Source: Roseomonas marmotae (lineage in GTDB: Bacteria > Pseudomonadota > Alphaproteobacteria > Acetobacterales > Acetobacteraceae). From it: a stretch of 64,000 bases of DNA. The DNA is taken from assembly GCF_017654485.1 (NCBI RefSeq), contig NZ_CP061095.1:144501-208500 (forward strand), in the 5' to 3' direction. The notes under the pieces are model-generated. The model ran no database searches. It was not told the DNA's origin and saw only the letters and a program-made list of their open reading frames with translations. A program made the position numbers and the translations under genes. Positions 17,317 to 27,965 of the stretch are shown piece by piece. Each line of letters opens with the position of its first letter. The stretch's first letter is position 1.

Positions 17317-18161
17317 GTAGGGGACTCATTCAGATCCACTCTGTGACGGCGGCGATCAGCGCGAGTGAGGCCAGGTAGTTCTGGGCCAGGCGGTCGTAGC
17401 GGGTGGCGACGCGCCGCCAGTTCTTGAGGCGGCAGAACAGGCGCTCGATCTGGTTGCGGCGCCGATAGGCCTGGCGGTCGAGTGGGTAGGGCCTGGTGCG
17501 GGTCGCGGTGGAAGGGATGACGGCCTTGATGCGGCGCTCCTTGAGCCAGCGCCGCAGGCTTTCGGCGTCATAAGCCTTGTCTGCGATGAGGCACTTCGGT
17601 GCGGCCACGGCCCCGAGCAGTGGCAGCGCCATGCTGATGTCGGCGGTGTTGCCCGGCGTCAGCGCGAAAGCGACCGGTCGGCCGCGATCATCGGCCAGAC
17701 AATGGATTTTCGAGGTGCGGCCGCCGCGCGAGCGGCCAACCGCCTGCGTCCACTCCCCCCTTTTCCACCCGCGGCCGAGCGGTGCGCCTTCACGTGGGAG
17801 CTGTCCAAGCTGAGTTCCTGAGGTATCTCGCCGGAGGCGGCCATCTTCGCGAACAGGCGCTGCCACAGACCACGTCCGGACCACCTGTTGAAGCGATTGT
17901 AGATGGTGGTCGGCGGACCGTAGGCCGCAGGCACATCGCGCCAGCGGCAGCCGGTCTTGAGCACGTGCAGGATGCCGCTGATCACCCGCCGGTCATCCAC
18001 GCGGGGCTTGCCTGGCCTGCCGCGCGGCAGGTGTGGCTCAATGGCAGCCCAAGCCTCATCCGACAGCCAGAACAACCGCGCCATCTCAGCCTCCTGAGCC
18101 GTTCAAACCCGTTCAGGAGATAAAACACCAGCAGCGCCAATAAGTTGTATGGGTTCCCTAC
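17317..18161 (-). mobile_element. IS5-family (IS427-like) insertion sequence, 845 bp
   Basis: Imperfect terminal inverted repeats: left end GTAGGGGACTCATTCA and, read on the other strand, right end GTAGGGAACCCATACA. CTAG is present at both flanks (17313-17316 and 18162-18165), consistent with a target duplication or use of a CTAG site. It encodes one transposase in two overlapping frames, as expected of the IS427 group. The element looks complete. Confidence 0.9.
17330..18084 (-). CDS. IS5/IS427-type transposase, two frames joined by programmed frameshift
   Basis: The upstream frame (18084 down to about 17760) gives MARLFWLSDEAWAAIEPHLP, then GILHVLKTGCRWRDVPAAYG and LDSSHVKAHR. The downstream frame (ending at 17330) gives GRSRGGRTSKIHCLADDRGR, then LIADKAYDAESLRRWL and NQIERLFCRLKNWRRVATRYD, the DDE catalytic region. 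They join at the slippery run A4G6 on the coding strand (plus-strand C6T4 at 17755-17764), where the ribosome can shift frame. This is the known layout of IS427-group elements, so the gene is probably functional rather than broken. Confidence 0.87.
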
Positions 18162-19160
18162 CTAGGCTTCCAGCGCCAGCACGGCGAAGCTGGCCAGCCA
18201 GTGCTCGCCCATGTAGTCGCCGGCGACATGCGGCAGGCCGGCTGCCAGATGCGTATCGGCCGCCTCCAGCGCCAGCGCGCGGCGGGGGTGGCCCTCCGGC
18301 AGCGCGGCGGCCAGGCTGCGCCAGCACCAGGCGCGGCTGAGGTTCAGGCCGTCCAGGTGCACGATCTTGCCGTCGCTGCGGTCGCTGACGGTCGCGGGTG
18401 TGAACAAGGTCGCCGGTTGCCGCTGCTCCAGGCGCGGCAGGAAGCGTATGAACCAGGGCAGGAACTCCCCTGCGGGCAGCAGGCGGCGCATGCATTCCGC
18501 CTCCATCAATGTGGGGGAGAGGAACTCGTCCCCGCCCGGCTCCCAGGCCTGGCAATCCGCATCCCCCGCGTGCCAGCGCCACGCAGCGTCCCGCGCCATG
18601 GCCAGCAGCCCGGCGTCTTCCATGGCCTCCGCGTAGTCGGCGGCGAGCGTCAGCGCGAAGCCCGTGTTGAAATGCGTGCCGACACGGAGGGGATAGGTGG
18701 CGCGGGGCAGGAAGGCCTTGAAGCGATCGGCCATCATCCCGGCCAGCGGCGCCAGGAGGCGGGCATGCCGGTCGTCCTCGTGGCGCGAGAGTTCCTCTGC
18801 CAGCTTCAGCAGCCAGGCCCAGCCATAGGGGCGCTCGAAGCCACGGGCTGCCGGGCGGCGCAGATAGGCGCATTCGCCCTCCACATTCTCCGGCGTGAAC
18901 TGCGCGGTGAAAAGCGCGCGGATCTCTTCCGCCGGCGCCATGGTGGGGAAGCGCCGCAACAGCCGCGCCAGCATCCAGTAGCCATGTACGCAGGAATGCC
19001 AGTCGAAGCTGCCGTAGAAGATCGGATGCAGCGCGCGCGGCCCCCGCACATCCTCCGGCCCGGCGAGCACATGGTCCAGCTTGTTGGGGTATTCGCGCGT
19101 CACATGCCCGAGGGCGATTCGCGCCAGCCGGGCGGCGAGATCCTGGTCCAGCCGCATCAT
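18162..19160 (-). CDS. DUF2891 family protein
   Basis: About 332 residues from the ATGATG start overlapping the stop of the upstream peptidase gene; a longer frame to 19205 exists but overlaps the peptidase more deeply. Recognisable family segments are LDHVLAGPEDVRGPRALHP, YGSFDWHSCVHGYWMLARLL, THFNTGFALTLAADYA and GDYMGEHWLASFAVLAL. The fold is predicted all-helical, like alpha/alpha barrels, with conserved Trp and His residues. Function is unknown for the family. It is translationally coupled to the P1-family peptidase. Its stop codon lies in the CTAG used by the IS. Confidence 0.85.
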   Translation of the reverse strand: MMRLDQDLAARLARIALGHVTREYPNKLDHVLAGPEDVRGPRALHPIFYGSFDWHSCVHGYWMLARLLRRFPTMAPAEEIRALFTAQFTPENVEGECAYLRRPAARGFERPYGWAWLLKLAEELSRHEDDRHARLLAPLAGMMADRFKAFLPRATYPLRVGTHFNTGFALTLAADYAEAMEDAGLLAMARDAAWRWHAGDADCQAWEPGGDEFLSPTLMEAECMRRLLPAGEFLPWFIRFLPRLEQRQPATLFTPATVSDRSDGKIVHLDGLNLSRAWCWRSLAAALPEGHPRRALALEAADTHLAAGLPHVAGDYMGEHWLASFAVLALEA

Positions 19161-20182
19161 GCCGCCGCTCCCCCGCGCGGGGCCTGCCCGAAGCGGTCGC
19201 GCCACGCCGGCTGCGCGCCGGGCCAGGGCAGCGCGGTGGCCTCGAAGACCGCGCGGGCCACGGCGCGGGCCATGACCTGCGTCGCAGCATGGCCCAGCAG
19301 GGTGAGGGCGTGAACGGGATGCTCCAGCGGATGCTGGCCGGTGGCGGCGGCGAAGACTGTGTCGCCGTCATTCGGCGCATGGGCGGGCAGGATGGCGCGT
19401 GCCAGCCCGTCATCGGCCATCAGCGCCAGGCGGCGTGCCTGGGGTTTGGTCAGGGCCGCATCCGTGACCACCAGCCCGATGGTGGTGGCCGTGCCCGGGC
19501 TGCCCTTCAGCCGGGGGCTGCGGTGCTCCGGCAGGAAGCGCGGCGGCAGGCCCTGGCCGCCGAATTCGGCACCCTCCTCGAAAGGCGCTGCCCAGAACCA
19601 GGGTCCATCCCCCACCAGGGGCGAGCCCACTGCGTTCACCGCCACGATGGCCGCGACGCGGTGGCCCAGCGGCGTCACGGTGCTGGCCGAGCCCAGGCCG
19701 CCTTTCACGGTGGCCGTGGTGGCCCCGGTGCCGGCGCCGACCGAGCCGAGCGCGAAGCCGCCCGCCGCGGCGGCGCGCGCGGCCTGGTAGCCGAGGTCCC
19801 GGTACGGGCTGAAGCGGCCCCAGTCCTTGTCGCCGCCATTCAGCAGGTCGAAGAGGATGGCCTGGGGCGCCAGGGGGATATTGATGCCGGCGAAGGCGAT
19901 GCCGCGCCCGTCCTCCCGCAGCGCGGCCTGCACTCCGCCCGCTGCGTCCAGCCCGAAGGTGGAGCCGCCGGAGAGCACGATGGCATCCACCCGCTCCACC
20001 GTCATCTCGGTGCGCAGCAGGTCGGTGTCGCGCGTGCCGGGAGCGCCGCCGCCGATCTGCACAGACGCCACGGCGGGCTGGTCGAAGATCACGGCGGTGA
20101 CGCCGGAGCCCAACGAGAGGTCGGTGGCATGGCCGACACGCAGGCCAGGGATATCAGTCAAGAGGTTCAGCGTCTCACTCAT
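19157..20182 (-). CDS. P1-family (S58/DmpA-like) peptidase
   Basis: 341 residues. Features are IPGLRVGHATDL near the N-terminus, LSGGSTFGLDAAGGV, and VKGGLGSAS, the motif at the autoproteolytic Gly-Ser/Thr junction that creates the N-terminal nucleophile of the beta chain. Family members are aminopeptidases or D-amino-acid esterases/amidases. Upstream and divergent is an oligopeptide-type ABC binding protein, so a peptide-use context is plausible. No signal peptide is seen. Confidence 0.88.
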   Translation of the reverse strand: MSETLNLLTDIPGLRVGHATDLSLGSGVTAVIFDQPAVASVQIGGGAPGTRDTDLLRTEMTVERVDAIVLSGGSTFGLDAAGGVQAALREDGRGIAFAGINIPLAPQAILFDLLNGGDKDWGRFSPYRDLGYQAARAAAAGGFALGSVGAGTGATTATVKGGLGSASTVTPLGHRVAAIVAVNAVGSPLVGDGPWFWAAPFEEGAEFGGQGLPPRFLPEHRSPRLKGSPGTATTIGLVVTDAALTKPQARRLALMADDGLARAILPAHAPNDGDTVFAAATGQHPLEHPVHALTLLGHAATQVMARAVARAVFEATALPWPGAQPAWRDRFGQAPRGGAAA

Positions 20183-21857: not shown

Positions 21858-22850
21858 TTATTCCGTGCGGATGCCGCCCGCACGGATCACCTTGGACCAG
21901 CGGTCATATTCGGACTGCAGGAAGGTGCTGAATTCGGCGCGCGTGCCGCCGATGACGCGGCCGGCCTGGACTTCCTCCACGGCCTTCCGCACTTCCGGCA
22001 CCGCCGCGACCTTGTTGAAGACCTCGTTGATGCGGTCCGCCAGCGCGGGGTTCATGGCGGGCGGGGCGACGACACCGTACCACACCGCCGCCTCGAAGCC
22101 CGGAATGGCGTCGCGCGCCGAGGGCACGCCGGGAAGCTGGTCGGTCGTGTCGCCGCCCATGGCCACGGGACGCACCTGGCCGCCCTTGATCATCGGGAAG
22201 GCGGAGGCGAGGCTGGGGAAGGAGAACTGCGCGTCGCCGCGCATCACCGCCGTCACCGCCTCGGAACCGCTGCGGTAGGGCACGTGGACCATGGTCGTCT
22301 TGGTCTGCTGCTCCATCAGCGCCATGGCGAGGTGGCTGATATTGCCGACACCGGCGGAGGAATAGACGAAGCCCTCGGGCTTCGCGCGCGCCGCGGCGAT
22401 GATCTCGGCCAGCGTCTTCTCCTTCACGGAGGGATGCGCGATCATCACGGCATGCAGGACGGCGCCCTGCATGATCGGCGTGAAGCCGGTCAGCGGCTCG
22501 TAGGAGAGCTTAGGATTCAGCTCCTTGCCGACGACATTGGCGCCGATATCGGCCATCATCAGCGTGTAGCCATCAGCCGGCTGGGTGTTCGTATAGGAAC
22601 CCGCCACCATGCCGCCCGCACCCGAGCGGTTCTCCACCACCAGCGTCTGGCCGTTGGCGAATTCGGAGAAGCGCTGCGCGAAGAGGCGGGCCAGCGTGTC
22701 CACGGCGCCGCCGGCGCCAAAGGGCACGACCATCTTCACGGGGCGGTCGGGCCAGGACGCGGCCGGCGACTGGGCCAGGGCGGGAGTCGCGAGCAGCCCG
22801 GCCGCGAGCCCGCCGAAAGCCCGGCGGGTGATCTTCGTTATCGTTGTCAC
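21858..22850 (-). CDS. tripartite tricarboxylate transporter binding protein (TctC/Bug family)
   Basis: 330 residues. A Tat-like signal with an RR pair (about 1-26) is followed by WPDRPVKMVVPFGAGGAVDTLAR, VVENRSGAGGMVAGSY and HVPYRSGSEAVTAVMRGDAQ, all standard for Bug proteins. These bind small carboxylates in the periplasm. TctA/TctB membrane partners are not in the window, which is common where many Bug genes are present. As the last gene of the leftward operon with the dehydrogenase, lyase and hydro-lyase, it probably captures the carboxylate that operon breaks down. Confidence 0.9.
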   Translation of the reverse strand: MTTITKITRRAFGGLAAGLLATPALAQSPAASWPDRPVKMVVPFGAGGAVDTLARLFAQRFSEFANGQTLVVENRSGAGGMVAGSYTNTQPADGYTLMMADIGANVVGKELNPKLSYEPLTGFTPIMQGAVLHAVMIAHPSVKEKTLAEIIAAARAKPEGFVYSSAGVGNISHLAMALMEQQTKTTMVHVPYRSGSEAVTAVMRGDAQFSFPSLASAFPMIKGGQVRPVAMGGDTTDQLPGVPSARDAIPGFEAAVWYGVVAPPAMNPALADRINEVFNKVAAVPEVRKAVEEVQAGRVIGGTRAEFSTFLQSEYDRWSKVIRAGGIRTE

Positions 22851-22880
22851 TGGAATTTCCTCGCTATAGTCAGGGAAGAG

Positions 22881-24017
22881 TCAGAAGGCCTCTTCGTAAA
22901 GGCGAAGCGCATCCGCCTCTGTCAGTTCCACGGGATTGTTGATCAGCAGGCGTTGCTGCTGCATGGCATCGGCCGCCAGCTGGGGCAGGCTGTCGCGCGT
23001 CACCTGCAGCTCATGCAGGCGCTTCGGCATCTCGCAGCCCGCCACCAGCCGCTCGACGGCGGCGAGGAAGGCCTCGGCCGAATGGCCCTCGGCACCCACG
23101 GAGGGGGCCAGCTCGGCATAGAGCGGCGCGGCGGCGCTGAGGTTGAAGCGCAGCACCGGCAGCAGCATCAGCGCGTTGGAGAGCCCGTGCGGCACGTGGT
23201 AGCGGCCGCCCAGCGGATAGGCGAGGGCATGCACGGCCGCGACCGGCGCATTGGCGAAGGCCATGCCCGCAAGGCAGGAGCCCAGCAGCATCGCGCCGCG
23301 CGCCGCCTTGTCCTGCCCATCCTTCAGCACCACCGGAAGGTTGGCCGAGAGCAGCGCGAGCGCCTGCTTGGCCAGCACGTCGGAGAGCGGATTCTTCAGG
23401 CGCCTGCTGGTGAAGGCCTCGATGGCATGCACCATGGCGTCGATGCCGGTCGCCGCCGTGACGGCCGGCGGCAGGCCCAGCGTCAGGTTCGGGTCCAGCA
23501 GCGCCACGTCCGGCAGCAGGCGGCGGGAGACGACGCCCTTCTTTTCCTCGGTCGGCGTGGTGACGATGGAGATCGGCGTCACCTCGGACCCCGTGCCGGC
23601 GGTCGTCGGCGCCAGGATCAGCGGCAGGCGCGGCCCCTGCGCGAGGTCGACGCCATAGATCGTCGCCAGCTCGCAGGGGGAGCGAAGCAGGTAGGCTACC
23701 AGCTTCGCGGTATCCATGGCGCTGCCGCCGCCGATGGCGAAGACGCCATCGACGCCGGCCGCGCCGAGCTTCTCCACCGCGGCCAGCACGATCCGCTCCG
23801 GCGGGTCCGCCTGCACCTCGTCATAGACGGTGACGGCGATGCCGGCGGCACGCAGGCGCGCCTCCACGGGCGCCACGAGGCCGGCACGGACCAGCCCCGC
23901 ATCGGTGACCAGCGCGACATGCCGGACACCGAATTCCGCGAACATCGCGGGCAGGTCATCCAGGGCACCGTCGCGCAGCACGATCCGCGGGGTGGTGGAG
24001 AAGCTCATCGACAGCAT
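22881..24017 (-). CDS. iron-containing alcohol dehydrogenase
   Basis: 378 residues, typical of group III alcohol dehydrogenases. The NAD-binding GGGSAMDTAK lies at about 98-107, and TTAGTGSEVTPISI follows. Metal-ligand residues are in GIDAMVHAIEAF and AVHALAYPLGGRYHVPHGL. The enzyme interconverts an alcohol (or hydroxyacid) and an aldehyde or ketone with NAD(P). Maleylacetate reductases are relatives, so the substrate is open. It starts 6 bp after the lyase stop, so the two are surely co-transcribed. Confidence 0.9.
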   Translation of the reverse strand: MLSMSFSTTPRIVLRDGALDDLPAMFAEFGVRHVALVTDAGLVRAGLVAPVEARLRAAGIAVTVYDEVQADPPERIVLAAVEKLGAAGVDGVFAIGGGSAMDTAKLVAYLLRSPCELATIYGVDLAQGPRLPLILAPTTAGTGSEVTPISIVTTPTEEKKGVVSRRLLPDVALLDPNLTLGLPPAVTAATGIDAMVHAIEAFTSRRLKNPLSDVLAKQALALLSANLPVVLKDGQDKAARGAMLLGSCLAGMAFANAPVAAVHALAYPLGGRYHVPHGLSNALMLLPVLRFNLSAAAPLYAELAPSVGAEGHSAEAFLAAVERLVAGCEMPKRLHELQVTRDSLPQLAADAMQQQRLLINNPVELTEADALRLYEEAF

Positions 24018-24023
24018 GATGGA

Positions 24024-24914
24024 TTACTCGGCGGCCTGCTTGGGCTCGTCGCGGGCCCAGCGCTTGTCGAAGTCCCAGACCTCCGGGAAGCCCATCAGCT
24101 CGTTCATCTTGGCGAAGTCGTAGATGACGCCCTTGTCGAGGCTGTTGGTGTCGCCTTCCTTCAGCAGATGCGCGTAGGAACGCTCCAGCGCCGCCGCGAC
24201 CGTCAGGAAGCCGATGGCCGGATAGATGGCGATGTTGAAGCCGAAGGAGGCCAGCTTCTCGGCGGAGAGGATCGGCGTGCGGCCGCCGCCATCGACGTTA
24301 TTGGCCAGCAGCGGCGCGTCGATCTCCTGGCCGATGCGCTTCATCTCGTCCTCGGATTCCGGGCTCTCGATGAAGACGATGTCGGCGCCGGCCTTCTGGT
24401 AGAGCTTGCCGCGGCGGATCGCCTCGTCCAGGCCCAGGCTGGTACGGGCATCGGTGCGGGCGATGATCAGGAAGTCATCGCTCTTGCGCGCCTCGGCGGC
24501 CACCTCGATCTTCAGCGCCATCTCCTCGGCGGGGATGACGCGGCGGCCCGGGGTATGGCCGCACTTCTTCGGCACTTCCTGGTCCTCGAGCTGGATGGCG
24601 GTGACGCCCGCCGCCTCATAGCCCATGACGGTGTGGCGCACGTTCAGCAGCCCGCCATAGCCGGTATCGGCATCGCAGATCACCGGCGTCTTGCAGCCCT
24701 GGGCGAAGCGGCCCATGCGCGCGACCATGTCCGTATAGGTGGCGATGCCGGCATCCGGCACGCCCAGATAGGAGGCGACGGTGCCGTAGCCCGTGGCATA
24801 GAGCGCGTTGAAGCCCATACGGTCGGCCATGCGCGCGGAAATCATGTCGAAGATGCCGGGGGCGACGATGAACTTCTTCGCCGCGATGGCGGCCTTCAGG
24901 CTGGGATCGGCCAT
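24024..24914 (-). CDS. isocitrate lyase / PEP mutase superfamily carbon-carbon lyase
   Basis: 296 residues. Features are FIVAPGIFDMISARMADRMG, the metal-binding DADTGYGG, the ICL-type active-site loop KKCGH in EVPKKCGHTPGRRVI, and LIIARTDARTS. The KKCGH loop marks a C-C lyase such as methylisocitrate lyase or 2,3-dimethylmalate lyase rather than a phosphonate mutase. It splits a 2-hydroxydicarboxylate-like substrate to pyruvate or a similar oxo acid plus a second acid. Immediately upstream are both subunits of an aconitase-like hydro-lyase that could form its substrate. Confidence 0.9.
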   Translation of the reverse strand: MADPSLKAAIAAKKFIVAPGIFDMISARMADRMGFNALYATGYGTVASYLGVPDAGIATYTDMVARMGRFAQGCKTPVICDADTGYGGLLNVRHTVMGYEAAGVTAIQLEDQEVPKKCGHTPGRRVIPAEEMALKIEVAAEARKSDDFLIIARTDARTSLGLDEAIRRGKLYQKAGADIVFIESPESEDEMKRIGQEIDAPLLANNVDGGGRTPILSAEKLASFGFNIAIYPAIGFLTVAAALERSYAHLLKEGDTNSLDKGVIYDFAKMNELMGFPEVWDFDKRWARDEPKQAAE

Positions 24915-24945
24915 GGATCGTGTCTCCTCTAGAGAAATTGGTTGT

Positions 24946-25443
24946 TCAGGCGGCGGCCAGGGCTTGGCGCACGCGCGATACCAGTCCGCCGGCGGCGAGG
25001 ATGGCGCGCACCTCGTCGCCCAGCGGCGCGGCCTGCCAGCTCTCGCCGCCCTGCGTCACGGCCATGCGGTCGAGGTCGACTCCGGCCTCCTCGCCCTCGC
25101 GCAGCGCCTGGGCGGCGTCGGGGCAGAGGATGACGGGCAGGCCGAGATTGACGGCATTGCGGAAGAAGATGCGCGCGGCGCTGACCGCGACGATGGCCGA
25201 GACGCCCGCTGCCTTCAGCGCGATCACCGCATGCTCACGCGAGGAGCCGCAACCGAAGTTCCGGCCGACGGCCAGGATGTCGCCGGGGCGGACCCGCTTG
25301 ATGAAGCCGGGGTCGAGGCCCTCCATGCAGTGGCGGCCCAGTTCCTCCGGCTTGCGGAGGGACAGGTAGCGGCCGGGCAGGATGACATCGGTGTTCACCT
25401 CGTCCCCGAAACGGTGGACGCGGCCCTGAAAGACCAAGCTCAT
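24946..25443 (-). CDS. aconitase-family hydro-lyase, small subunit (LeuD/DmdB-like)
   Basis: 165 residues, the swivel domain. It shows FGDEVNTDVILPGRYLSL near the start, then GRNFGCGSSREHAVIALKAAG and ARIFFRNAVNLGLPVI. It pairs with the large subunit encoded directly upstream, overlapping it by 4 bp, to hydrate or dehydrate a hydroxyacid. The short form matches archaeal/homoaconitase-type and 2,3-dimethylmalate dehydratase small subunits, not the roughly 200-aa LeuD of leucine synthesis. Confidence 0.9.
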   Translation of the reverse strand: MSLVFQGRVHRFGDEVNTDVILPGRYLSLRKPEELGRHCMEGLDPGFIKRVRPGDILAVGRNFGCGSSREHAVIALKAAGVSAIVAVSAARIFFRNAVNLGLPVILCPDAAQALREGEEAGVDLDRMAVTQGGESWQAAPLGDEVRAILAAGGLVSRVRQALAAA

Positions 25444-26732
25444 GCGGCCTTCTCCAGCATGCGGGCGACCTCGTCCGGCGGGACGATCTCCCCGGTCACG
25501 GCGGCGGCGGCGGCGACCCAGGCATTGGACAGGAAGACCTGGGAGTCCGGGTGCCCCATGCGGCCGCGGTAGTTGCGGTTGGTGGTGGCGATAGCCGTCT
25601 CGCCCGCCGCCAGGATGCCCATATGGCCACCGAAGCAGGCGCCGCAGGTGGGAGTGGAGATGGCGGCACCGGCCTCGGCGATGATGTCCAGCAGGCCCTC
25701 GGCCAGGGCCTGACGCCAGATCTTCTGCGTCGCCGGCACCACCACCATGCGCACGCCCTGGGCGACCTGACGCCCGCGCAGGATCTCGGCCACCTGACGC
25801 AGGTCCGTCATGGTGCCGTTGGAGCAGTTGCCGACGTAAACCTGATCGACCTTCTGGCCGCGCAGCGCCTCTACCGGCACGCCCGAGGCCGGGGAGGGCG
25901 GCTTGGCCACCATCGGCGTCAGGCTCGAGAGGTCGATCTCGATCCTCTGGCGGTATTCAGCATCGGCATCCGGCATCACCGCCGGGGCGGCCGGCACGCC
26001 GCGCTTCACCATATCGGCGGTGGACAGCGCGTCACCTTCGAAGACGCACATATCTGCGCCGCCCTCGACCGCCATGTTGGCGACGGCCATGCGTTCGTCG
26101 ATGCCCAGCGCGGCCACGCCCGGCCCGCCGAATTCCAGCGAGGCATCCGCCGCGCCATCCGAGCCGATGCGGCGGATCAGCTCCAGGATCACGTCCTTGC
26201 CCGTGACGAAGGGGCCGGGCCTGCCGGTCAATTCGACCCGGATGCTATCGGGAATCCGCATCCAGAGCCGGCCCAGGGCCAGCGCGCCCGCGAGGTCGGT
26301 GGAACCGAAGCCGATGCCCAGCGCGTTGAAGGCGCCGGCGGTGCAGGTGTGGCTGTCGGCGCCAAAGACGATGGTGCCGTGGCCGACCATGCCGAGTTCC
26401 GCCAGCAGCGTATGCTCGATGCCGCCGCGGCCGGGCTCGTAGTAATGCGGAATGCCATGCTTGCGGGCGAAGTCGCGCGTCATGGCGATGGCGCCCGCCG
26501 CGGTCACGTCGGGCGCCGGCGCGAAGTGATCGGCCACCAGCACGATGCGCTGCGGGTCGAAGGGGCGGGCGGCGCCCATGGCATCGAACTGCTCGAAGGC
26601 CAGCGGGCCGGAGACATCGTTCAACAGGACGACATCCGGCCGGATGGTGGCGATGGCGCCGGGGTAGATCGCCTCCGGCCCTTCCACCGCATGCGCGGCC
26701 AGGATTTTCTGTGTGATGGTGCCGTGCTTCAT
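25440..26732 (-). CDS. aconitase-family hydro-lyase, large subunit (LeuC/DmdA-like)
   Basis: 430 residues from ATG 26732 (MKHGTITQKILAAHA), chosen because homologues begin there and the extra 72 residues upstream look non-coding. [4Fe-4S] ligands are in VGNCSNGTMTDL and STPTCGACFGGHMG; GADSHTCTAGAFNALGIG is also present. It forms a dehydratase with the adjacent small subunit. The clustering with an ICL-type lyase, an Fe-dehydrogenase and a TctC protein, under a LacI regulator, points to breakdown of a branched or substituted dicarboxylate rather than leucine synthesis. Confidence 0.9.
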   Translation of the reverse strand: MKHGTITQKILAAHAVEGPEAIYPGAIATIRPDVVLLNDVSGPLAFEQFDAMGAARPFDPQRIVLVADHFAPAPDVTAAGAIAMTRDFARKHGIPHYYEPGRGGIEHTLLAELGMVGHGTIVFGADSHTCTAGAFNALGIGFGSTDLAGALALGRLWMRIPDSIRVELTGRPGPFVTGKDVILELIRRIGSDGAADASLEFGGPGVAALGIDERMAVANMAVEGGADMCVFEGDALSTADMVKRGVPAAPAVMPDADAEYRQRIEIDLSSLTPMVAKPPSPASGVPVEALRGQKVDQVYVGNCSNGTMTDLRQVAEILRGRQVAQGVRMVVVPATQKIWRQALAEGLLDIIAEAGAAISTPTCGACFGGHMGILAAGETAIATTNRNYRGRMGHPDSQVFLSNAWVAAAAAVTGEIVPPDEVARMLEKAA

Positions 26733-26814
26733 GCCGACACCCTGCAGGGACCGCTGGCCGCTGGCCGCATGGCGCCTTCCTCCCGAATCTGCTTTGCCTG
26801 GCCTTTGCCAAGCC

Positions 26815-26834
26815 TTATGCAATCGATAGCATAA
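26815..26834. promoter_or_regulatory. probable LacI-family operator
   Basis: TTATGCAATCGATAGCATAA is a 20-bp palindrome with one mismatched pair and a central CG, the classic LacI-family geometry. It lies between the divergent aconitase-like operon (start 26732) and the lacI-type gene (start 26931). A further half-site GATTGCAT lies at 26893-26900. It probably controls both directions. Confidence 0.7.
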
Positions 26835-26930
26835 TCCGGTGCGCCGTAAAGGGGGGTTCACGGAAACTCTCCTTGAGCAGGCTTGGGCCAGCGATTGCAT
26901 GAGCCCCGGCGCTCTGCTACCGGCGCAGTC

Positions 26931-27965
26931 ATGGAGGACCCGCAGCATCCGGCCAGGGCGACCGTGGCCAGCCTGGCCCGCCGTGCCGGCGTGGCAGCCT
27001 CCACTGTTTCCAGGGCGCTGCGGGACGACCCGCGAATCTCGCCCCAGGTCCGTGCCAGGATCGCCGCACTGGCGGCGGAGGCCGGCTATACCCCAAATGC
27101 CCTGGCACGCACGCTGGTCAGCGGCCGCAGCGGGTTAATCGGCCTGGTGCTGGGGCCGATCGAGAATCCCTTCTATACCGAGCTGATGCAGCAGGCCGTG
27201 GTACAGGCGGCGGCGCGTGGCTACCGGCTGCTGCTGCTGCATGTCGGCTCCGGCCCCATCGACGACGCGACCGCCGCGGCGCTGCTGCAATACCGGGTCG
27301 ATGGCTGCCTGATCACCTCGGCCGAGCTATCCTCACGCGCCGCTTCCGTCTGTGCCGCCAATGGCGTGCCGGTCGTGATGATCAACCGCGTGGCGCGGGA
27401 ACATGCCAGCGCTGTCTCCTGTGACAACCTCGCGGCGGGGGAAACCCTGGCCGATCTGTTGCTGGCTGCCGGCCACCGCCGCATGGCGGTGATCGCCGGC
27501 AATCCCGGCACCTCCACCAATATCGAGCGTGCCGACGGCTTCATCCGCCGCGTGACCGCGGCGGGGCTGCCGGCGCCAGCCGTGCTGCCGGGTGGTGGGG
27601 ACCACGCCGCCGGCTATGCCGCCGGCCAGGCCGTCGCCGCCCTGCCGCGGGCGGAGCGGCCGGATGCCCTCTTCGGCGTCAGCGACATCCTGGCCATGGG
27701 GGCCATGGACGCGCTGCGGGAGGCCGGGCTCTCGGTGCCCGGGGATATTTCCGTGGTCGGCGCCGATGGCATCGCCGCCGCCGGGCGGCCGCCCTATCGC
27801 CTGACCAGCTATGCCCAGCCGTTGGAAGCCATGGTCTCCCGCGGGCTGGACCTGCTGCTGGCGCGCATTGGCGGCGCCAGAATGCCGGATGAGCGGGTGC
27901 TGCTGCGCGGCCAGCTGATCCGCCGCGCCTCCGCCCGGCTGCCGCTCGAGGCCGCGCTCACCTGA
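26931..27965 (+). CDS. LacI-family transcriptional regulator
   Basis: 344 residues from ATG 26931. The N-terminal helix-turn-helix is ATVASLARRAGVAASTVSRA, with the hinge-type segment GYTPNALARTLVSGRS. The periplasmic-binding-protein-like effector domain includes GLVLGPIENPFYTELMQ, HRRMAVIAGNPGT and PDALFGVSDILAMGAMDAL. It most likely represses the divergent hydro-lyase/lyase operon and releases it on binding a substrate or intermediate. It ends 8 bp inside the convergent emrA-like gene. Confidence 0.9.
   Translation: MEDPQHPARATVASLARRAGVAASTVSRALRDDPRISPQVRARIAALAAEAGYTPNALARTLVSGRSGLIGLVLGPIENPFYTELMQQAVVQAAARGYRLLLLHVGSGPIDDATAAALLQYRVDGCLITSAELSSRAASVCAANGVPVVMINRVAREHASAVSCDNLAAGETLADLLLAAGHRRMAVIAGNPGTSTNIERADGFIRRVTAAGLPAPAVLPGGGDHAAGYAAGQAVAALPRAERPDALFGVSDILAMGAMDALREAGLSVPGDISVVGADGIAAAGRPPYRLTSYAQPLEAMVSRGLDLLLARIGGARMPDERVLLRGQLIRRASARLPLEAALT

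Follow-up and report, generated by a model that had tools for sequence, protein, structure and literature searches.

The DNA analyzed here (the window) is a stretch of 64,000 nucleotides from Roseomonas marmotae (contig NZ_CP061095.1, positions 144,501 to 208,500). At window positions 21858 to 27965, a LacI-family regulator gene diverges from five minus-strand genes that encode LeuC-like and LeuD-like proteins, a C-C lyase of the isocitrate lyase/phosphoenolpyruvate mutase (ICL/PEPM) family, an iron-containing alcohol dehydrogenase (Fe-ADH), and a TctC protein. In the direction of transcription, these are the LeuC/DmdA/HacA-type large subunit (25440..26732) and the LeuD/DmdB-type small subunit (24946..25443) of a two-subunit hydro-lyase, the dimethylmalate-lyase-like C-C lyase (24024..24914), the accessory Fe-ADH (22881..24017; PF00465/PF25137), and, as the last gene of the operon, the TctC/Bug-type solute-binding protein (21858..22850; PF03401, 139.6 bits). 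The gaps between them, from LeuC to TctC, are -4, 31, 6, and 30 bp, a spacing that fits one transcript, and the five genes are probably expressed as such. The start of LeuC was placed by homology at 26732, giving a protein of 430 amino acids that replaces an open reading frame (ORF) of 502 amino acids. The six-gene set listed in the first-pass annotation of this DNA, including a lyase with the motif KKCGH (residues 116-120), is present in full.

The LacI regulator (26931..27965, plus strand) carries a LacI helix-turn-helix domain and a Peripla_BP domain (PF00356, 45.9 bits; PF13377, 107.2 bits), and its start, placed by homology near 26931, leaves a divergent regulatory region of 198 bp between the LacI and LeuC genes (26733..26930). 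The sequence and an alignment of 19 intergenic regions, i.e., that of the window and those of 18 related loci with an adjacent divergent LacI gene, reveal a LacI-type operator candidate, TGCTATCGATTGCA (26818..26831, minus strand). It is found with at most two mismatches in 16 of the 19 regions, whereas the shuffled control gave a mean of 0.02; the exceptions are L024, with three mismatches, and L033 and L058, whose LacI proteins are only 58% identical to that of the window. The exact sequence occurs once in the whole genome. The conserved operator candidate supports control of the operon by LacI, as had been claimed from the gene arrangement. A second, weaker operator-like site, TGCAATCGCTGGC (26887..26899, minus strand), is partly conserved in the alignment, as judged by eye. 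The promoter-like site of the LacI gene, TTGCCA-16-TAGCAT (26805..26832, plus strand), is a single consensus match, compared with 0.6 in shuffled sequences, and is weak when taken alone; its overlap with the operator candidate suggests that LacI may repress its own gene.

The proteins of the operon share superfamilies with the LeuCD enzyme of leucine biosynthesis and the PrpB lyase of the methylcitrate cycle but score below the curated cut-offs for them. The window LeuC gives 193.2 bits with TIGR00170 (leuC; cut-off, 560.25), and the window LeuD gives 51.8 bits with TIGR00171 (cut-off, 116.25), whereas another LeuC/LeuD pair in the genome reaches 787.2 and 249.4 bits. Similarly, the lyase gives 252 bits with TIGR02317 (PrpB; cut-off, 354.4), whereas another gene of the genome gives 417.4 bits. 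Because the copies above the cut-offs lie elsewhere in the genome, the operon is not the organism's LeuCD or PrpB; the dehydratase is not its only LeuCD. The small subunit does exceed the cut-off of TIGR02087 (186.7 bits; cut-off, 108.95) and the large subunit that of NF001614 (509.5 bits; cut-off, 385), both of which are broad subfamilies that are not function-specific. In the loop after NTDVILPGR, the small subunit has the motif YLSL, which takes the form YL(S/A/T)L in eight aligned operon relatives.

The active-site motif residues of the lyase comprise the KKCGH motif, R153, E183, and N205, and D81 and D83 are invariant in 25 aligned sequences; the motif, the metal-binding Asp residues, and the Arg and Glu belong to the active site of 2,3-dimethylmalate lyases. 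In the HMMER alignment with Salmonella PrpB (PDB accession number 1o5q), a Met of the lyase lies opposite the Arg of the TRNEL motif (Arg270 of PrpB, which holds the third carboxylate); the MAFFT column at this position shows a different 1o5q residue, near the end of its stretch. The missed PrpB cut-off and this Met argue against the methylcitrate-cycle variant that the first-pass annotation had entertained. The C2-pocket triplet of the lyase is IYP, the corresponding residues being IFP in 3fa3 and AHS in 1zlp. The Pro is a marker of lyases resembling 2,3-dimethylmalate lyase (DMML), with Ser in the petal death protein, but it does not single out DMML because the CPEP enzyme 4iqd and PrpB 1o5q share it. 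In light of structural work on these families, the IYP triplet of the lyase and the YL(S/A/T)L motif of the small subunit suggest that the substrate carries hydrophobic side chains, not charged ones. The predicted structure of the lyase (pLDDT, 89.3) matches four enzymes to a similar degree (oxaloacetate acetylhydrolase, the petal death protein, DMML, and PrpB), and the specificity can therefore not be read from the fold.

Relatives of the operon were fetched with the window lyase as the query, and the best 80 of 84 named loci were compared. LeuC (at least 79% identical), LeuD, the lyase, and TctC occur together in 21 of the 80 loci, which argues against a chance grouping and supports the claimed pairing of the dehydratase and the C-C lyase. 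A short contig with LeuD, the lyase (84% identical), and TctC (L027) was left out of this count. The hosts of the 21 operons are members of the Roseomonas group, other Acetobacteraceae, Aquabacter, and two metagenome-assembled genomes (MAGs) of Hyphomicrobiales/Rhizobiales. TctC (58 to 93% identical) lies downstream of the lyase in all 21. A divergent LacI gene adjoins the operon in 18 of them; in 2 others LacI is at a distance of about 2.4 kb, and in the last one none was found. An Fe-ADH (at least 79% identical) lies between the lyase and TctC in only 7 of the 21; since the other 14 have none there, the enzyme appears to be an optional accessory, not the needed step for the released oxo compound that it had been taken for. 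It reaches no NCBIfam equivalog cut-off (best match, ErcA, 294.5 bits versus 550). The remaining loci, except L027 and L091 (lyase 47% identical), have lyases that are 56 to 82% identical and no window-type LeuC, from which it appears that the lyase clade has other uses. A protein family (c2) is common to 23 lyase loci, mostly just downstream of the lyase, and its member in L049 scores as HAD type II. Lyases 69 to 75% identical to that of the window stand without the window-type LeuCD in L036 to L064 except L058, and in others; in Roseomonas-group genomes, the next gene often encodes a HAD type II protein (2-haloacid dehalogenase family). The named and unnamed sets of loci overlap (for example, L030 and L106 are apparently one contig), and their counts are not additive.

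In some relatives, the operon adjoins genes for an HspB-like FAD monooxygenase (FMO), which is not encoded in the window. In L033 and L058, an amidase and the FMO follow the operon directly after TctC, with an AMDase-like protein close by and, in L033, a GntR-like regulator. The best PDB match of the L033 amidase is 3ot4/3uao (248 bits; maleamate amidohydrolase), and that of the FMO is HspB (7da9, 197 bits). L105 has a contiguous series of FMO, LeuC, LeuD, lyase, and AMDase-like genes beside genes resembling those of an ABC transporter, an MBL hydrolase, and a HutC-type regulator. In Flavimaribacter (L065), the order is FMO, AMDase-like, PuuE-like, GntR-like, SDR, and MBL, followed by the lyase, an SDR, a distant LeuCD, the amidase, and a second lyase; a Pararhizobium MAG (L073) has the same order in a fetched stretch that starts after the place of the FMO, and L162 and L163 contain the lyase, the distant LeuCD type, and FMO, AMDase-like, and PuuE-like genes. 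The distant LeuC is approximately 32 to 34% identical to the window LeuC and falls nearer the leucine-type LeuC of the genome. That a distant LeuCD occurs with these partners adds independent support for a link to the FMO module. The AMDase-like proteins of family c21 lack the two cysteines in all 11 aligned sequences, consistent with a substrate that is not converted to fumarate, whereas proteins of family c30, present in other clusters, keep both.

The genome of R. marmotae itself contains this module on two other contigs. Contig C1 (L097) has amidase, AMDase-like, TctC, FMO, GntR, and SDR genes, and C4 (L172) has PuuE-like, ABC transporter, SDR, and MBL genes. When the gene sets were compared, the C1 genes were 58 to 80% identical to copies in L030, L033, L035, L058, and L065, and the C4 genes were 70 to 90% identical to copies in L070, L110, and L115; L110 and L115 are the FMO loci of two genomes with the window-type LeuC (G011 and G107). 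The first-pass annotation missed these likely upstream enzymes, which lie outside the window.

Four side observations concern these clusters. The AMDase/maleate-isomerase-family protein at L097:9736-10479 and its relatives are conserved beside the FMO, yet lack both catalytic cysteines. L065 and L073 each have two paralogous lyases (63 to 64% and 67% identical to that of the window), possibly for two different alkylmalates. In an alphaproteobacterial MAG (L081:5008-12561), two ORFs that by eye look like HyuA and HyuB (hydantoinase) precede a lyase (61% identical), a distant LeuC/LeuD pair, and a c8-type amidase; the hydantoinase would be a third type of ring hydrolase found with these partners. 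A VanA-type Rieske oxygenase (L149:7891-9039; PF19112, PF00355) directly precedes the FMO in a cluster that is more distant, a hint at the upstream chemistry.

The co-occurrence of these genes was surveyed in 180 genomes of the family with E-value thresholds of 1e-150 for LeuC, 1e-120 for the FMO, and 1e-110 for the lyase; the FMO and the lyase were the only partners surveyed. LeuC passed in 7 genomes, the FMO in 15, and the lyase in 45. The FMO is present in six of the seven genomes with LeuC, compared with 9 of the 173 without it (Fisher P = 7.7e-7), and coincides with the lyase in 13 of the 15 FMO genomes (P = 2.4e-7). When the genome of the window is removed, the P values become 7.9e-6 and 8.4e-7, respectively, and at the genus level the FMO is found in 5 of 5 LeuC genera versus 5 of 97 others (P = 3e-6). 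The lyase lies beside LeuC in six of the seven LeuC genomes, and in the seventh (G152) a 62% identical lyase is approximately 9 kb away. A different accessory gene of the aconitase family from the R. marmotae genome was present in 3 of the 180 genomes, and neither of the two others has the FMO. As a side observation, the sole LeuC genome without the FMO has a second set beside its operon, on what is apparently one Pseudoroseomonas coralli contig (L017/L109): a lyase (40 to 48% identical), TctC, TctB-like and TctA-like ORFs, LeuC (31%), and LeuD (38%). This suggests that a related acid is handled by a parallel pathway of dehydratase and lyase.

DmdA/DmdB and 2,3-dimethylmalate lyase belong to the clostridial nicotinate fermentation (Eubacterium barkeri). 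In a Lachnospiraceae MAG (L091), ORFs resembling enamidase, DmdA, DmdB, methyleneglutarate mutase, and PrpF/isomerase are followed, after one more ORF, by a lyase, a set that appears to match the gene content of this fermentation. The L091 lyase joins the proteobacterial clade of the window lyase, and the L091 LeuC joins the clade of the window LeuC, both with a support of 1.0. The window system differs from the clostridial one in that its hosts are proteobacterial and presumably aerobic, in its LacI control and TctC, and in the linkage of the operon in relatives to the FMO and an amidase rather than to a mutase and an isomerase.

We propose, with a probability of approximately 60%, that the operon encodes the final steps, hydration and C-C cleavage, of an aerobic catabolic pathway for alkyl-substituted maleates, that it is repressed by LacI, and that it is often fed from a nitrogenous compound by a separate module. 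The observed basis is the gene set, the conservation of the operon and its operator, the co-occurrence with the FMO, and the adjacency of the module in relatives; protein family and gene context suggest the reactions, their order, and the repression. A nitrogenous compound, perhaps an N-heterocycle or imide, would be oxidized and its ring opened to give an alkyl-substituted maleamate by an upper module that in many hosts would comprise the FMO, cyclic-amide or lactone hydrolases (PuuE-like, MBL), SDRs, and a maleamate-type amidase. The amidase would convert the alkylmaleamate to an alkylmaleate and ammonia, LeuC-LeuD would add water to the alkylmaleate (citraconate, dimethylmaleate, or a larger homologue) to give an alkylmalate, and the lyase would split the latter, releasing a 2-oxoacid (pyruvate or a homologue) together with a short carboxylic acid, namely, acetate, propionate, or butyrate. 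Only the hydration and cleavage steps would be encoded in the window; TctC would feed a carboxylate uptake system, with the Fe-ADH as an optional accessory. A more specific version, which we consider rather improbable, is that the operon and the two partner loci form an undescribed aerobic pathway for alkyl-substituted maleimides or related lactams, such as the methylethyl- and methylvinylmaleimides from the oxidative breakdown of tetrapyrroles (heme, bilin, and chlorophyll), in which monooxygenation, ring opening by the PuuE-like or MBL hydrolase, the amidase, hydration of a dialkylmaleate, and lyase cleavage would lead to central metabolites.

Several observations weigh against the proposed alkylmaleate pathway. 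The operon and the partner modules are unlinked in the genome of R. marmotae, with a different type of regulator at C1. One LeuC genome (G162) has the operon and not the FMO, and 38 of the 45 lyase-bearing genomes lack the window-type LeuC, so the lyase also works elsewhere. The P values above are too small, because the surveyed genomes are related and shared ancestry was ignored. Among 18 enlarged distant FMO places, taken from 54 listed and picked partly for matches beside the FMO, the lyase is present in only 3 and LeuCD in 2, and the distant LeuCD of L065, L162, and L163 may be a stray leuCD. In the lyase tree, several of the deeper nodes have low support (0.07 to 0.46), so that the tree does not show which solved structure is nearest. 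The labels in L091 come from gene content; its enamidase-like and mutase-like ORFs have no NCBIfam match, and its isomerase-like ORF has two NCBIfam matches, both under the respective cut-offs. The identities between the window and L091 are only 46 to 47% for the lyase and 37 to 39% for the large subunit, and in the LeuD tree the DmdB of L091 groups with L099, another protein of the R. marmotae genome (support, 0.82), and not with the window LeuD. The analogy to DmdAB and dimethylmalate lyase drawn in the first-pass annotation is supported by the grouping of the lyase and the large subunit but not by the small-subunit tree.

The operon could instead serve a stand-alone C5 route, in which citraconate taken up via TctC is hydrated to (R)-citramalate and split into pyruvate and acetate, with no link to an N-heterocycle. 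This is an unlikely but serious possibility: TctC is a constant member of the operon, LacI control is separate from the GntR of the upper module, and G162 keeps the operon without the FMO, whereas the co-occurrence and adjacency with the FMO and amidase speak against it. We regard as quite improbable that the dehydratase makes D-malate from maleate while the lyase acts on a different compound. Maleate would indeed be the product of the linked maleamate-amidase-like enzyme, and two-subunit maleate hydratases of the same type are known; however, malate needs no C-C lyase, yet LeuCD and the lyase stay together in the 21 lyase-fetched loci and in the seven LeuC genomes of the survey, where they are adjacent or, in G152, nearby.

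It is very improbable that the operon serves 2,3-dimethylmalate as in the clostridial fermentation, with nicotinate as the source. The relationship of its lyase and LeuC to those of L091 favors this idea, but no gene resembling enamidase, methyleneglutarate mutase, or methylitaconate isomerase was recognized by eye around the operon or in the linked gene sets, although no search of the whole genome was made for them, and the linked FMO, judging from its family, would need oxygen. A role in leucine biosynthesis or a variant of the methylcitrate cycle is hardly credible, since only the fold families favor it and other genes of the genome meet the curated cut-offs that the window proteins miss.

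The proposed alkylmaleate pathway also resembles the maleamate branch of aerobic nicotinate and nicotine degradation, to which NicF, NicE, and HspB belong: the linked amidase is nearest to 3ot4/3uao and the FMO to HspB. Unlike in that branch, the linked AMDase-like protein lacks the two cysteines that c30 proteins keep, and LeuCD and the lyase come next; this would suit a maleate with alkyl groups better than conversion of maleate to fumarate. The riboflavin/lumichrome catabolism of Nocardioides simplex likewise degrades, under aerobic conditions, a heterocycle that carries vicinal methyl groups, but it ends with a pyrone hydrolase, a dienedioate hydratase, and a retro-aldolase, yielding pyruvate and acetoacetate, and no word beginning with isocitrate, aconitase, or maleate was found in the text of the paper (PMC12746152). 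A description of the dehydratase-lyase set with oxygen-using upstream enzymes was not found in an open-access library from which most subscription journals are missing, which is weak evidence of absence. The enzyme type of the lyase is already known, since some sources label its relatives 2,3-dimethylmalate lyase. Such proteins in Roseomonas-group genomes are labeled 3-isopropylmalate dehydratase, oxaloacetate decarboxylase, and carboxyphosphonate mutase. If the proposal is true, it predicts reactions for proteins so labeled and unites three separate loci of a single genome in a testable pathway, and the dehydratase-lyase logic of the clostridial nicotinate fermentation would serve again in aerobic alphaproteobacteria, as the last part of a broader pathway for a nitrogenous substrate.

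Beyond the operon, the window encodes a peptidase S58 (PF03576) and a DUF2891 protein (PF11199) at 18162-20182, which are near the operon only in L013, L014, and L021 (matches above 100 bits). Two overlapping minus-strand ORFs at 17330-18084 look by eye like an IS5-type transposase with a frameshift.

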